NCBI GenBank assembly: GCA_026027325.1
Contig: JAMSLZ010000007.1
Location: 496,001 to 560,000 of the forward strand
Source of the DNA: Actinomucor elegans
Lineage: Eukaryota > Mucoromycota > Mucoromycetes > Mucorales > Mucoraceae
Direction of reading: 5' to 3'
Length of the DNA: 64,000 bases
Of the stretch, positions 27,824 through 37,700 are shown one piece after another. Position numbers and translations under genes: made by a program. Each line of letters starts with the position of its first letter. The first letter of the stretch is position 1. Below the pieces are notes generated by a model, which did no database searches, was not told where the DNA came from, and was given only the letters and a program-made list of their open reading frames with translations.

Positions 27824-28929
27824 TTAGTAGATAGTCTTGAGACTAAAGTTCTTGAAATAAGAGTATTGCTTCTTGGGTGTCTTCCAAGTGTCGTCTGAAC
27901 CACCAAAGAAAGTATGGAACACTATTGGCATGGCGGTTAATCTCTGTTACATTCTAAATACTTATTTAAGTTTACTTACTGATACCAGCGACACGACCAG
28001 TGTCATTTGTACGGAAAACAAGCTTTTTCTCGGACAAAACGCGTCTACCGTTAATATGAAGAGTAAGCTCACCATTTCTCTTGTGAGGAGAGTTCATGGT
28101 AAGAGTTTGACGAATAGAAATCCATTTGCCAGTAGCAAACTTGAATGAACTGCGGCCCAAACTGAAGCCGTAGTCAGGGTTACAGATGTTAACTTTGTTA
28201 TCACAAAGGTCATTTCTTTGAACAGATTGGGGCAAGTAGGCATAGATTTCACCTGCGCCTTCATCACGCCACATAACTCTATTATAGTAAGTACTGTTAG
28301 TTCATATTCGCATTGTTTGTAATAGGTTAAGGCATACCTAGTAGTAAAGCATTTCTTTGAATCAACACCACCAGTACAATCACCATGGCCACCGTAGAGG
28401 CCAGGAAGTTTACCACCTGTAAATAATAGATAATGAATAAAAGAACAATGGTTGGTTATAGTATATGCAAGTTACCTCTAACAAATTTGAATCCTCTAGG
28501 GAAAAAGACGCTGTATTGCAACACAACTGTTTTAACCTTAGTGTCAATCTCAAGAGGGTGAGCTTTGAATCCAAGGCCACCGATAATTCTAGCTTCGGGA
28601 TTTCTAGAGCCAGCGGGATATTCAACGCGAAGCATAAGATCCTTCTTCTTACCAGAGGGATCTCTGGCTGCAACATTCTTGAAATTATCGGCGCCCTTCC
28701 AGTTCCAGAGCCAGCCATCATGCTCAGGAATTCCCCAGGCTTTCTCCCAGACACTGCCTTTGCCGACGGTCGCTTTACCGTATTTGTTCCAATTGTAAAA
28801 TTTCCAATATTTGCTTCTGACTTTTTTAGTGGACTTTCTTTTAGTGGTTCTTCTTTTGGCAGCTTCGATAGTTGAGATGAAGCAGATGAATACTACAACA
28901 AGTAGCAATAAATAGCGTGATTTGATCAT
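27824..28929 (-). CDS. secreted polysaccharide lyase family 14-like protein
   Basis: Four inferred exons (28476-28929, 28338-28416, 27980-28278, 27824-27921) give 309 residues. The N-terminus MIKSRYLLLLVVVFICFIST followed by IEA is a clear signal peptide, then a Lys/Arg/Thr-rich stretch. The beta-jelly-roll body has PL14 hallmarks: LQYSVFFPRGFKFVRGGKLP, GLYGGHGDCTGG, a conserved Cys pair, and the C-terminal MFHTFFGGSDDTW...YSYFKNF. PL14 enzymes cleave uronic-acid polysaccharides (alginate or glucuronan) by beta-elimination. Glucuronic-acid polymers are abundant in Mucoromycota walls, so a wall or glucuronan target is plausible; that is inference. The final intron (27922-27979) splits an ATG codon. 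Confidence 0.85.
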
Positions 28930-30718
28930 ATTAAGCGACTAAGAGTAGCTGATTTAATGAATGGAAAGGGATCCTTTTCAAGATAGTTGATGAAGAGAAG
29001 GGTGGTAGAAAAATAATAGAAAAAAATAAAATGAACGCTGAATAGAGTTTTGATGCCTTTATATACAAGTTGTCATCAAGTTGCACATAATCTTTGGTCA
29101 ATTTGCTGTAATTTAGCTGGTACACTCCGATGAATGAGTCGTACAGAGTTTTAATTGAAGCTTTAAATTGTATATACTCCATTGTGTTATAAACTCGAAA
29201 TGGAAGACAATCGCAAACATCATAGATCATGGTCCAACATTGATTAAATGGCATCGGGCCTAGTTCATTATCGTACAGTTTTATAGCCTATATCAAACCA
29301 ATTTCTATACCCGCAGCCTCCTATTAATCTAAGGTGCGTACAGTAACCGGAGTTCAGGATTAGTATTAGATCAAAGCATCTAAGTTTGAACGGGTGCTAA
29401 TATCTAAGTGAAACACATAATTACGCGCGCATTGATCATCGTACGTTCCTGATTCGTATAGTCATCGTTAATGAGTTAATTTTTAGCGTTTATACTAATA
29501 GGCGTCATAAACTGTTGCTTAATTAAATGGGAGAGCTTCGAGTACGGAAGGCCTATTATGATCAATTAAACTAATGAGCGTGTTTTCTTTCTTAAAATAT
29601 TGGAATGTGATACCAACCACACTAAAATAACAAGCACTTTATCAAAAAGAGCTTATCGTACCTCATTCCTGAACATTTACAATCCAATACTCGGCTAGTT
29701 TTTCCTTTTCTATGATTAATCCTACTCCGGCCACGTTCATCAGTGCGATAATTTACTCCATTTTGCTTATTTTAATTATCAATTGCGTTAGTTAAAACAA
29801 AACCGGACCAATCTACCAAAGAGATGCCTTAAACTTTAGCACTGCCTATTATCCTTGCCCTTTCCTGAGAAGATTTCGCTCCATTTGATAAAGGTCAAGT
29901 AAGCGTATTATTGTTCAACCATGTGTTTAGCTTGTAAGACGTGTAGGATTGTATAATCTGAGGAAATTTCTGTATTTTGGGATTTTTACACGATTATCAC
30001 CGGTTTGCTAAATATTAATCAATGAACATTTGCTTTATGAGCCGTAATTTGACTGGAATTCCCATTGTGGTTATATTGCTTTCGATATTCCTTATGTTGT
30101 AGGTATCAACAGTTATCTTTGAAGATGTGACCAATGGGTTCATTTAATACTAGACAAAAGATTCCCGAAAATTAAGAGTTTTGGATGAACAGGTAAGAGG
30201 CAGATATCACATTCATCTATGATACAACCCAAGATGTCGCCTAGAAGCTTATAAACAGAGCAGTATAGGCAAAAATGAGAATAGGAAGGCTCATAAAATT
30301 TTCTTATCAAAATGTGGAATAAAAGAAGTGAAGAGAATAAGAAATCAGAGGAAAGCAACCGACGATATTAAGCAGCGAGCCTGCTTGTTCTTTAATTAGA
30401 GGTTGGCGCTACATATTCAGTAATCGTGATAGATGCTACATGTATTCATCTTTTTCGACTCCATAAGCTGTGACATTTAGCTGACTTTCTAAACTAATGA
30501 GCACCATAAAGAAAAAAAGCATAATATAAACCAGCTAGTAAAATAGAAGCGCCAGCGTCGACCGGAGGATAGCGGTGGTAGCAGGAGGGATTTCATATAT
30601 GTAGTTGCTCATTTAAACAAAGTTGGCGAAGAAACTTTTATAGATATGATTACACAATGTTTACGTAAAATCATACAATTTCAAATCAATCATAAGGGCC
30701 TTATTAAATATAATAATT

Positions 30719-31320: not shown

Positions 31321-33024
31321 GAGGCTTATACTAAGCTCTCTGTTTGACTAATCTACAACTAGTACATATATTTATATATACAAACATCAAGTGATATGTG
31401 TCATAGAACTTACTTCCATCAATTGACAGATACAAAATGCAAATCAATGAAAATAGCGTTTATTCTTCTATGATTCTCTAGATTTTTAAAGCATTATCGC
31501 GTTTCATTTTTAACTTGAATCAGTTTTATGATTTTAACAATTTGCTTCAACCCATGGGGTTACTTAATTTGGTACCTATTAACCCATGAATTTAATTTCT
31601 GTATCTTTTGATGATGATGATCAGTTCAGGTCCTGTTGAACAAAAGATGTGGCCAGTTTTACCATCATCATCATCTTCCTTCCTTCAGAGAAGACAGAGT
31701 GGCGTATCATACCATCCGTTTCTACCTGCTCATACCTTAAATCGTATTCCCCATACGACATGCTAATGTTTGAGAAATTTCTTTAAAAAAACGCACTAAA
31801 AAATATTCTGGACTTGCTTTCTAAGGGTGTTTGTTTGGTTTTGGGGTACTTTATTATTAATAGAATCATGGACCTGAAACAAACATTGTCTGCGTTATGG
31901 CTTTTCAATAAGAAGAGAGTGCACAGTTAAACACTTTTCTCATGTTGCTGATGTTTCTCTTATTATTAGACATGTTAGTGAAGGCCTGACGTCTATATCA
32001 CAATACGGCAATTTGGAAGAATTAGAATTAATCATTGCTTCAATGAAAGTGTTTCAAAACCTAAAGGCCAAACATGAATATCAAATTTAATATTGCGAAC
32101 AGACAGCGACATCAAATATGCCACCGTTAATTATTCTACTGTCCCCGCTGTTACATTTTCATCAATAAATCCAGAAAAAGTAATGGCTTAACTCTTACCG
32201 ATCCGAGCTACATTCTCAGCTGGTCAAATGATACAGAAAATAAAGGGGGTTCGTGAATTCCGTGTATCTAGCAGCTGCCTACAATGACCTATAGGTATTA
32301 AAGTTGATTTATTCGAAAGCATAAGCCATGTTTTATCAATCATCCGAAGACTAAACATGTATCCCCATTAAATGTTGGTTGAGATACGATTTTGTGATTT
32401 TCAAGAACGTTGGTTAGTCCTGCTAGATAACAACACTTTTTTTTAGATACACTAATCACAACCGAAATTGGCTTTGGACTGTTTTTCTGTCTCAAACTAA
32501 TAACCAATAGGTCTAAAACACTGGGAATCATTGGGCTGTACCTATCAAAAGATTTGACGCAAAAGTGATCTTATTTGATATGTCTTTGACGTATTTATTT
32601 GTTTCCCTGCCTGTCTTATCTGTATTTTCCTATTCACTTGCCTGAGTAGCTTATTTTTGGTATTTGTTATTCCTTTCTTCATTAAACGAGGGTTTTTTGC
32701 TGGGGGGGGGGGAGGGAGGGGAGGAAGAGGAAGCATACAGGCTAGTGCTAAAATGGAACTAAATTGATCGTCTGTATAAAAGACAAAAATCATAGTACAA
32801 GTTTAAATACGGCAAAATGTTTGTAGATGGGCTTTGCATCACCTAGATTATAATCTTTTTAGGTTTGTATTTCATGGTTTTTGTTGGTTCGCGTTCTTAT
32901 CGCGAAATGTACCCAATCAAACCGGGTTGAGTTTGAACAAAAACACTTGGGTTTATTCTCCTGTATGACACATCATGAATATATGGACCAAGAAAGGCGG
33001 TCACAATGAGATGGGTATATTAGA

Positions 33025-33030
33025 TGACTC
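33025..33030 (+). promoter_or_regulatory. candidate Gcn4/CPC1 half-site
   Basis: TGACTC within AGATGACTCTTATT, about 130 nt before the CPA1 uORF. It matches the core of the general amino acid control element that activates arginine genes in other fungi. A 6-mer can occur by chance. Confidence 0.35.
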
Positions 33031-33152
33031 TTATTTCCCCAGATTTTTCATTCTTCTTTTCTCTTTGTCAAAAAAACTCTAAACAAAGCCTCCAACTATC
33101 AATTCATTCTTAGTTTAGGCAATTACTCTATCGTTCTCTAAGACGTAACTTT

Positions 33153-33296
33153 ATGTATATTCACGCCTACGAAAAGTGCTCAGCCGATTACATTTGCGAT
33201 CAAAGTAAGTCTTAATTCAATGTCCACTGATGGTTGATGGTTACTCACCGCACGCGTTGTTTAATCTTAGTTTGGAAGTCCTCAGAAAATCTTTAA
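33153..33296 (+). CDS. spliced uORF encoding an arginine attenuator peptide (AAP)
   Basis: Exon 33153-33204 and exon 33271-33296, joined across a 66-nt intron (GTAAGT...ATCTTAG), encode a 25-residue peptide. Its core CSADYICDQIWK aligns without gaps to the fungal AAP consensus (QDYxSDHxW). Asp12, Tyr13, Asp16 and Trp19 fall at the same residue numbers as in the Neurospora arg-2 peptide. In known cases the nascent peptide stalls the ribosome at the uORF stop when arginine is high, repressing the small subunit of arginine-specific carbamoyl phosphate synthetase. The next coding region here is exactly that subunit, 84 nt downstream. Without splicing the frame ends at DQSKS and lacks the Trp. Substitutions relative to the consensus: Gln to Ala, Ser to Cys, His to Gln. 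Confidence 0.85.
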
Positions 33297-33380
33297 ACAA
33301 GCAACTCTTGAATCAAATCATTTAATCAAGCTTTTAACTCTTTAAACTTTATACTTTATCTTATCAACTCTTATTTAACA

Positions 33381-34565
33381 ATGTCTTACACAAACACTCC
33401 CGCTTCCCTTAAATTGAAGACTGGTCAAATCTTCCATGGTGTTTCTTTTGGTGCTCCTGTCAACTCATTTGGTGAAGCCGTCTTCACTACTTCTCTTGTC
33501 GGTTACCCCGAATCCATGACTGATCCTTCTTATACGGGCCAAATCTTAGTTTTCACCCAGCCTTTGATTGGCAACTATGGTGTTCCTTCTCAAGAAAAGG
33601 ATGAATTCGGTCTCTACAAATACTTTGAATCAGATGGCATTCAAGTCCAAGGTATCATCGTCAATGACTATGCTACCGAATATTCTCACTGGACTGCTGT
33701 CGAGTCTTTGAGTGAATGGTGTATCCGCCACAACGTCCCAGCCATTAGCGGTGTTGATACCCGCGCTTTAACTCAACTTTTACGTGATCAAGGATCTACC
33801 TTGGCTCAAATCTGTGTTGGCGATGAATCTCACATCGACAATATCAAATCTATTCATTTCCCCAACCCCAATGAAGAGAATTTGGTAGCCAAGGTCTCTA
33901 CCAAGGTCCCTGTCACTTACAACCCCAAGGGCGAATTAAAGATTGCTGTGATTGATTGCGGTGTCAAACAAAATATTCTCCGTTGTCTTGTTAGCCGTGG
34001 TGCTAGTGTCACCGTGTTACCCTACAACTACGATTTCAACGCTGTCGCTGATCAATTCGATGGCGTTTTTGTTTCCAATGGTCCTGGTTCCCCCACACTC
34101 TGTCTTGAGACTATCAAACACTTAAAGGTTGCTATTGAACACTTGAAGAAGCCTATCTTTGGTATCTGTATGGGTAACTTGTTGCTTGGTATGGCTGCTG
34201 GCCTTCAAGTCTACAAGTTGCCTTTTGGTAACCGTGGTCATAACCAACCTGCTCTCAATGTTGATACTGGTCTTTGTTATATTACTTCTCAAAACCATGG
34301 CTATGCTTTGAACGATACTTTGATGCCCAAGGGCTGGAAGCGCCTGTTTGTTAATGCTAACGATGGTTCCAATGAAGGTATTCAACATGAATCCAAGCCC
34401 ATCTTTTCCGTCCAATTTCACCCCGAAGCTAAGGGTGGTCCTGAAGATACTGTCTATTTGTTTGAAGAGTTTTTAAAGCAAGTTCGTGTTCAAAAGGTCG
34501 AAAACGAAGGTTTCCATGCTACTATTTCAGATCGTCGTCTATCTACTGTCGCTACCTTTGCTTAA
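33381..34565 (+). CDS. CPA1: carbamoyl phosphate synthetase, arginine-specific, small (glutaminase) subunit
   Basis: Single-exon frame of 394 residues. It hydrolyses glutamine and feeds ammonia to the large subunit for carbamoyl phosphate in arginine synthesis. N-terminal half: [52 protein letters not shown]-terminal class I glutaminase domain: VSNGPGSP, nucleophile Cys in [30 protein letters not shown], and catalytic His/Glu in [10 protein letters not shown]. The usual GHQ after the nucleophile reads GNL. No obvious mitochondrial presequence precedes [10 protein letters not shown], so a cytosolic enzyme as in yeast is likely. The start has a good context (AACAATG). Regulated by the AAP uORF and possibly by general amino acid control. 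Converges with the dynactin gene. Confidence 0.95.
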
Positions 34566-34757: not shown

Positions 34758-37700
34758 TTATTGTATAAAGATACTATGTATCTTATCAAATTCTGTCATA
34801 CTCTTGAGCTGAATACATCGATTACTCTTTACAGCACTCTGGCCAGGTAATTGAACTTTGGCTAATGATTTAAGCGATGACAGTGTCTCTTTTTGCTATA
34901 AAATATCAAAAAATTAGCCAATTTTATACAAAAAGTATGGTTGTTTTTACCTTGTGCAAGATAGGCTGAATAGATACTGTTAGCTGTCGATCTTTTTGAG
35001 CTTGGGCCATCTTATCTTTCAATTGATCGCATCTTTGTTTTAGGGTATACAACACAGATTGTTGTGTTTGGTATTGATAATCTGGTAGTCGCTTGTCACT
35101 ATGCCATTTACCGCCTCTACGATCTGGGTTCAGTTGAATGATTTTAGGTGTAGCACTTGCTGTACGCATATCCTTGACAAGCATACGCGTTTCTAGAGCA
35201 AATGATCGCATCATGTCCTGTACTTGAGGATCTACAGCAACCACAGGTTTGGGTGTATCCAATTGCAATGATCGAATGATATCTGAGCCCTTTAGATGAG
35301 CATTCTCTGCACGTAAATAACGAATAGCATATTTCAAAGATTCCATCTGGCTACTGATTTCAGACATGTTGACGTTTTCTTGCATTATAGTCGGTGTATC
35401 TTCTAGGAGGTCGAATTCGGCCTTCTTTGGTGTAGAAAGACGCTTTTCTTCCTTCTTGGCTGCATTCTTTTTCAGTAATGTGTTCTCTTGTTCCAACGTG
35501 TCGTACTCTGCCTGCAGATTCTCTATAGCTTCTGCATACATTTGTTCTTGCGCCTGTGATTTACTGAGAGTTTCTTCAAGTATAGTGATTTGATCAGCTT
35601 GTTTTTTAACAGTCTCCATGCGCTTCTCTAATAATTCAATCTTTACGCTTGATTCTTGAAGTGATTGATCCTATCCAAAAGTCACTATTGTATGCCGTGG
35701 ATGTACGTATAATTTAATTACCTTGAACTTGACGTCCTTGATAAGTTTCACAATCTCATCGCTATGCTGTTGCAATTTACGTTCCATATCATGGTTCATT
35801 ACCACTTCAGCTTTCATATCAGAAGCACGTTGAACCCAAGGAGCTACTCCAGTTGCAACTGATGTATATAATTGAGTATATATAAAACTGCAGATCAATC
35901 AAAATACTTACTCTTTTCAGTCTTGCTTTCATTCGAGATACGTTCAAACGCTGTACCAAGTTCGCTAGTTAATGACTTCAAAGTTTTTAAACAGGCTTCC
36001 CACATGGTGCTTTCAGCAATTTCCAAAATCTCGTCTGCTTTATTATAGACGATCTGTTGAATGATAGCGAGGCTGATCTCTTCTTTACTGCCTACTTTAG
36101 CATTGACATAGGCTGATATTTGCTTATAAGTCTCGTAACAAAATTTGCCCAGTTTAGAGCTAATAGCGTAAAGCATTTTGAATCGATGAAGATAATCCGA
36201 CTTTAAAGTCAATGCTTGCTCAGAAAGATCTTCTAATTGACGCAAGAGTTTCCTAATAACAAAGTCATTAGATTTTGTTAGTTTCACAACTTCTTACTAT
36301 TGCAGCTTACTTTGCTAAAATTTTGCTATTCTTTGCTTGTACAATAAGACGGCCTAAAGGTTCCAGATAATCATAATCTAATTGCTCGCGTCCTTCAACA
36401 ATACTGATGTCTATAGAACAGTTGAGTAAAACATGTTGATAGACTTGTAAGCAATACTTACTTTCATTTTGGGCTGCATTAGCCACTGCTTGCTTTACAT
36501 AGGTCAATTCTACGGTCATTCGATCAGCATTCAAATCCAAAGCTCTTGTCAAGCCAAAGAATTGATCTACATGATTGGCTTCGCTTTGCACTAAATGAAT
36601 CTCGCTCAAATGTTCTAATTGAGCAATCATACGCTGTAATTCTACTACGCACTCTGTCTCTTTGATTTCATCGGTTCGCAACAGATCCACAATACCAGTT
36701 AAACGACGCTCTGTGCCTACCAAATCGTGATAAACCTGACCCATTTTGATGAATGTCATTGGGTTGCAATTGATGATGAACGTAACAAAGCGTTTACTAA
36801 GATCACTCAACCATCCTGCTCTTTGACGCATTTCACATACAGCCACTAAATTCTCTGATACAGTATCCATGATTTTTTCGCTGATGGGGTAGTTTTGATC
36901 TAGATGCTTAATGATCAATTCGGCTTTAAAGACAAGACGTTTGTAGAGCAAAACACACGAAATAGCATCGTTCTCAGTTTTGAAAAACGAGTCAGGCAAA
37001 TAAGGTTGAATATAGCTAAGACGATCGTTGGCTTGAGCCGCATCCAGTTTACGCAGTTCAAGATCGATGGATTTAGCTTGAGCTTTCATGACAGTTGACT
37101 GCAATTGCATGTTAAGGGACATCATGGCTTGCGATTGACTGCTGAGTGTTTGCTTTTCTGATTGCTGGCTCACTTCCTTGTGACGAAGTTGCTCCAGATC
37201 ATTTTGTAGAGTAGTAACCAGTTCACGGAACTGTTGGATGGTAGCTTCGTAATCTGCAGCTGTTTCTTCAGCAGATCGCAGGCGTTCCATTTGCTCACGC
37301 AACAGCATATCTCGGTGATCTATTGATGATATCATTTAGTTACTATCGCCTGCATTAATCCTGCATTGTATATACCTATTTCATCTTGTAATTGCTTTTC
37401 AGTTTCCATATGGTTATCTTCCAATTCATCAGCGAGTTCTTTCAAAGCTTCTAAATCATCAATGACCATACGCATTTCATCCATCTTTTCAGTCAGCGAT
37501 AAATTCTTTTCAGTCAATTGTTCTACCAAGTCTTCAGCACCCAAAGCGTCGTCCAAACGTTGCTTAAGTTCTTCAATCGTGTATTCAGCCATTTCAAGTT
37601 TATCGCGTGTCTTGTCAAACTGAGCCTTGACTTCCTCTAATTCATAAGTTTCCTTTTCTAAATTCTTGATTCTGTCAGATAATTCACTTTCTCTTTCTGC

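Follow-up and report, generated by a model that had tools for sequence, protein, structure and literature searches.

A probable, diverged arginine attenuator peptide split by a predicted intron in the CPA1 leader of a Mucorales fungus

The window, a 64-kb stretch of DNA analyzed over its whole length, carries the gene for the small subunit of a carbamoyl-phosphate synthase (CPSase), preceded by a short upstream open reading frame (uORF) that a predicted intron interrupts. The gene had been named CPA1 in a preliminary description of this DNA, and the name agrees with Pfam matches of its product to GATase (3.7e-50) and CPSase_sm_chain (2.8e-46) and with the names of its homologues, since many of the best 120 of 7999 bear this enzyme's name. 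The nearest named homologues among the same 120 belong to Benjaminiella and Gilbertella (89% identity), Choanephora and Blakeslea (87%), and Rhizopus and Mycotypha (80-82%). Because these are its nearest genera, we place the window in the Mucorales, in keeping with the Mucoromycota origin proposed earlier. The features of the locus are as follows.

33024..33032, + strand: ATGACTCTT, starting 129 nt before the uORF ATG
33153..33204, + strand: uORF exon 1, from the ATG to the first base of codon 18, encoding MYIHAYEKCSADYICDQ
33205..33270, + strand: predicted intron of 66 nt, GTAAGT...TTAG, phase 1, within codon 18
33227-33231, + strand: possible branch point CTGAT, within the predicted 66-nt uORF intron
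33271..33296, + strand: uORF exon 2, with the remainder of codon 18 (Ile), Trp19, Lys20, SSENL and the TAA at 33294-33296
33294-33296, + strand: uORF stop codon TAA, the predicted stall site (from the sequence and the alignment of the peptide with two attenuator peptides)
33297..33380, + strand: intercistronic leader of 84 nt, free of ATG in the list of ATGs
33381..34565, + strand: CPA1, arginine-type CPSase small subunit, 394 aa in a single uninterrupted frame

Matches to the small-chain profile occur at two places in the genome, CPA1, which stands alone, and an 860-aa frame on C21. On C21 the large-chain profile also matches, in the 860-aa frame and close by in one of 1393 aa, and it matches twice in a separate 968-aa frame on C26. 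The C21 frames fit a pyrimidine-type fusion protein and the 968-aa C26 frame fits CPA2. From this domain anatomy and the homologue names, we infer that CPA1 is the arginine-type subunit, with the uORF lying in its leader on the assumption that transcription begins upstream of 33153. Within CPA1, the sequence around the predicted active-site cysteine (34161-34202) is present in all 120 listed homologues; bacterial enzymes have GICLGHQ around that cysteine. At the N-terminus (33381-33425), 14 residues stand ahead of GQIF, with 11-25 in the 24 best-ranked of the listed homologues and 42-68, mitochondrial-targeting-like by eye, in the CPA1 proteins of Phycomyces, Halteromyces, Umbelopsis and Jimgerdemannia. 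From these N-terminus lengths, a relocation of the enzyme within the Mucorales is possible. Scans of genome_contigs and viral_contigs with a CPA1 pattern returned 27 and 1 matches, none of them a relative. Elsewhere in the window, a minus-strand frame convergent with CPA1 (36307-37335) matches Dynactin strongly (2.6e-88), and another minus-strand frame (28456-28938) matches Polysaccharide lyase 14 (3.2e-11).

Reading the window sequence and splicing the uORF by script gives a peptide of 25 residues, MYIHAYEKCSADYICDQIWKSSENL. The preliminary description had read it as an arginine attenuator peptide (AAP), and its coordinates, 66-nt intron, spliced peptide and gapless Neurospora register were all reproduced from the sequence, the script and the alignment. 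It had also held that the peptide becomes an AAP only once the intron is removed, and this is what we find. The unspliced frame closes at an in-frame stop (33213-33215) after 20 residues, and its product, MYIHAYEKCSADYICDQSKS, lacks Trp19 and matches no Pfam family at E up to 10. The core AAP residues Asp, Tyr, Asp and Trp stand in register in the spliced form only. The intron, previously placed between Gln17 and the Trp19 region, lies inside codon 18. Five AG acceptors were found between 33250 and 33381, and the one at 33270 is the sole acceptor that produces the AAP. One of the others, at 33330, would join exon 1 from 33205 to the CPA1 frame and so extend the enzyme at its N-terminus. That junction leaves a frame open into CPA1, and the longer N-termini of more distant relatives, some mitochondrial-targeting-like by eye, lend it some plausibility. 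However, its acceptor is AAG, as opposed to the TAG of all eight introns inferred elsewhere in this genome (by a script that favored pyrimidine-AG). Among the 120 listed homologues none starts with this sequence (first 12 residues compared), and a search for proteins with the uORF peptide fused ahead of CPA1 found no candidate. The AAP match, too, would then be a coincidence. We regard such an isoform as highly implausible.

Three ATGs lie farther upstream than the uORF (33006, 33011 and 33024), and their frames have all closed by 33113. After splicing, the uORF ATG is the sole ATG from 33025 to the CPA1 start, so ribosomes that begin scanning in this stretch would meet the uORF first. Its start context is AACTTT-ATG-T, with T at -3, and that of CPA1 is TTAACA-ATG-T, with A at -3. 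The uORF context may be weaker than that of CPA1, as leaky scanning would need, although T at -3 is also found in six of the ten long ORFs of the window that served as a yardstick, with starts unverified. Farther 5′, ATGACTCTT resembles a Gcn4/CPC1-type general amino-acid-control site. It is the only TGA(C/G)TC-type 6-mer on either strand of 32381-33381, with 23 in the whole 64-kb window, and this putative site suggests that CPA1 may be under general as well as arginine-specific control. A G-rich tract (32702-32731) lies ∼420 nt 5′ of the uORF. No Rfam family matched 32600-33500 with an E of 1 or less.

To place the uORF intron among others of its genome, we compared it with eight introns inferred in the chaperonin genes. 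These are 48-97 nt long, with GTA donors (GTAAGA three times; GTAAGT, GTAAAT, GTAAAA, GTATGT and GTAGGA once each) and TAG at every acceptor, and the uORF intron (GTAAGT, TTAG, 66 nt) is of the same type as these inferred introns. Part of this likeness is built in, because the chaperonin introns are the candidates ranked highest by a scoring scheme biased toward GTAAGT-like donors and pyrimidine-AG acceptors; lengths of ∼40-120 nt were permitted for the in-frame ones. Four of the eight exon gaps held no intron candidate, and the nine in-frame matches comprised four with credible introns, one with an implausible intron only (L006), three with none (L005, L009 and L011) and one without an internal stop (L007). 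The 97-nt intron scored equal to a 118-nt alternative. The preliminary description had gone further and proposed that splicing could switch the attenuator on or off. Since the intron splits the core ahead of Trp19 and the retained form has neither Trp19 nor a Leader_CPA1 match, regulated retention of the 66-nt intron could in principle set the share of CPA1 mRNA that carries a working AAP. If this were true, only spliced CPA1 mRNA would sense arginine, and a feedback loop based on ribosome stalling would have its gain set by RNA processing. Against this, the splice sites resemble the ordinary ones of this genome, and a retained intron adds three ATGs, which open frames of 5 codons (33220), 31 codons (33230) and 19 codons (33237). 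Because these precede CPA1, retention would more probably lower CPA1 translation or destabilize the mRNA than free it. A simple on/off switch is thus less likely than had been claimed, and gating by splicing appears improbable.

The spliced peptide was compared with the AAP of Neurospora crassa arg-2, which scores 56 bits on Pfam Leader_CPA1, and with the uORF peptide of Saccharomyces cerevisiae CPA1. Asp12, Tyr13, Asp16 and Trp19 are common to all three peptides. The same gene lies downstream in Neurospora, and the two peptides (25 aa here, 24 aa there) align without gaps, with 5 of 12 core residues identical. They differ by T9C, Q11A, L14I, S15C, H17Q, L18I and R20K, and by the intron inside codon 18 here. 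Identity to the yeast core is higher (7/12), in a register offset by one residue, with the yeast T, C, Q, S and H replaced by C, S, A, C and Q. Ile14, Ile18 and Lys20 are the yeast AAP residues, whereas Neurospora has Leu, Leu and Arg there, and the yeast peptide, like this one, ends a few residues past the core. Eight core residues are common to the Neurospora and yeast AAPs; half of them are kept here and half are changed. The three consensus changes listed previously, Q11A, S15C and H17Q, are all correct, but T9C, a fourth site that differs from both references, had been missed. None of the four remaining shared residues (T9, Q11, S15 and H17) is therefore present, although they were not counted as defining for AAP membership. 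We conclude from the sequence that the peptide is a diverged AAP.

On the Pfam family PF08252 (Leader_CPA1), the spliced peptide scores 13.9 bits (E 0.036), with its residues 10-22 on profile positions 10-22. Because this lies below the curated cut-off of 18.5 bits, which the two known AAPs far exceed at 56 (Neurospora) and 58.8, the peptide cannot be filed in Leader_CPA1 as curated. Leader_CPA1 is the sole Pfam family that it matches at E up to 10. An E of ∼0.036 can, however, be due to chance, as the Neurospora control peptide also matched a zinc-finger family at E 0.037. A six-frame PF08252 search of the same genome found three unrelated places at 14.2-17.4 bits, none above the cut-off, and the profile also gave a match in one bacterial control genome. 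In a sequence search of the PDB, no entry matched the spliced peptide with an E of 10 or less. With a sub-cut-off score and an E of a size that chance can reach, the profile evidence is weaker than it may first appear. Instead, the case for an AAP is carried by several features taken together: the register, the gene, the position, and an intron whose removal brings back the reading frame right at the core.

That a peptide this short resembles an AAP by accident was addressed with random and real sequence. The 328-nt leader was read both without splicing and with a single intron removed, and the readings were scored against the 12-residue Neurospora or yeast core, whose self scores are 69 and 74; the best reached 39, whereas the highest score among 5000 first-order random leaders was 25. 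The search space was small, because the splice-site rules of the script allowed three readings of the leader only, the unspliced one and two introns. Of 1704 half-overlapping real pieces, drawn from the window and 22 of 24 loci with the two CPSase loci excluded, the CPA1 leader alone reached 39, and the runner-up scored 26. When peptides of 14-45 aa that begin with ATG were screened for DYxxDxxW, the pattern turned up once among 2289 readings covering both strands of the window, in this uORF, and never in ten second-order random windows read on a single strand (13160 readings). On its own, the half-motif encoded by exon 1 is not rare: it occurs at 7 places in the 36.5-Mb genome, versus 12 for a reversed control pattern. 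As the complete motif is unique in the window and absent from the random windows, and no random leader reaches the score of this one, chance resemblance is excluded, with a vanishingly small probability left to it. The sequence of the uORF, its register, the gene that it precedes and its non-randomness are direct observations.

By analogy with the known system, we consider it likely that this is an intron-split AAP whose spliced uORF stalls ribosomes at its own stop codon when arginine is plentiful, thereby attenuating CPA1. Splicing and translation of the uORF are inferred, as are stalling, the arginine response and mRNA decay, the last three from that system. Once the 66-nt intron has been spliced out, ribosomes initiating at the ATG at 33153 would make the 25-residue peptide. 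At high arginine, the growing peptide would act from within the exit tunnel through Asp12, Tyr13, Asp16 and Trp19, and the ribosome would stall with the TAA at 33294 in its A site. The stall would keep scanning ribosomes from reaching the CPA1 ATG at 33381 and may route the mRNA to decay. At low arginine, ribosomes would scan past the uORF or finish it quickly, and CPA1 would be made. A tryptophan at the position of Trp19 is essential in AAPs. In the yeast CPA1 uORF, arginine-dependent stalling at the stop codon is lost when the core Asp is changed (PMC7969011). The uORF described here retains the Asp whose change abolishes the yeast response.

The descendant of an AAP might also have lost arginine sensing and act as a plain uORF that lowers CPA1 translation constantly. 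We keep this reading as a rival mainly because four of the eight core residues common to both references are changed, and the Leader_CPA1 score below the Pfam cut-off points the same way. Set against it are the four residues that are kept, which include the Asp required for the response in yeast (PMC7969011) and the essential Trp, along with the yeast-like Ile14, Ile18 and Lys20 and a peptide frame that remains open across an intron. On balance a relic is a minor possibility, and an arginine-responsive attenuator is preferred.

AAPs have been described in ascomycetes, and the preliminary description saw in this locus an extension of the nascent-peptide sensor deep into fungi. This holds insofar as an AAP-like uORF stands before a Mucorales CPA1, but a basidiomycete AAP had already been reported. 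PMC7049704 describes a native uORF with strong ribosome occupancy in the CPA1 homologue of Cryptococcus, counts it among AAP uORFs, citing Hood 2007 for its function, and gives a 5-fold increase of the mRNA without UPF1. The Cryptococcus uORF precedes the same gene as here, and the two are likened by that description, not by peptide sequence. Because the Cryptococcus AAP uORF is published, the step taken here is from Dikarya to Mucoromycota and not from ascomycetes to all fungi. A literature search by titles and abstract beginnings found no AAP in Mucoromycota among the matches listed, which is weak evidence of absence. One paper containing both "attenuator peptide" and "Rhizopus" was set aside as a Mucoromycota report, since Rhizopus is named there for another gene. 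The intron-split uORF is thus a new member, in Mucorales, of an AAP kind already known.

Whether the likeness was inherited is a separate matter, as AAP-like peptides may arise independently. In Toxoplasma gondii, a uORF of ApiAT1 resembles an AAP, needs its Asp and is arginine-responsive, and its authors suggest convergence (PMC8370653). That uORF shares with the present one an AAP-like sequence with an important Asp, but it is 33 aa long, apicomplexan and located before an arginine transporter gene. The peptide here precedes CPA1, as AAPs do in other fungi, which makes inheritance the simpler explanation, and we judge an origin outside the fungal AAP lineage very improbable.

With its core divided by an intron, this AAP would escape searches of unspliced leaders, and those of other early-diverging fungi may for that reason have gone unnoticed. 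As a diverged natural variant at positions 9, 11, 15 and 17, the peptide could be used to test which AAP residues are needed. Few eukaryotic peptides are known that sense a small molecule from within the ribosome tunnel, and the AAP is among them; if the reading proposed here is true, it predates the split between Mucoromycota and Dikarya.
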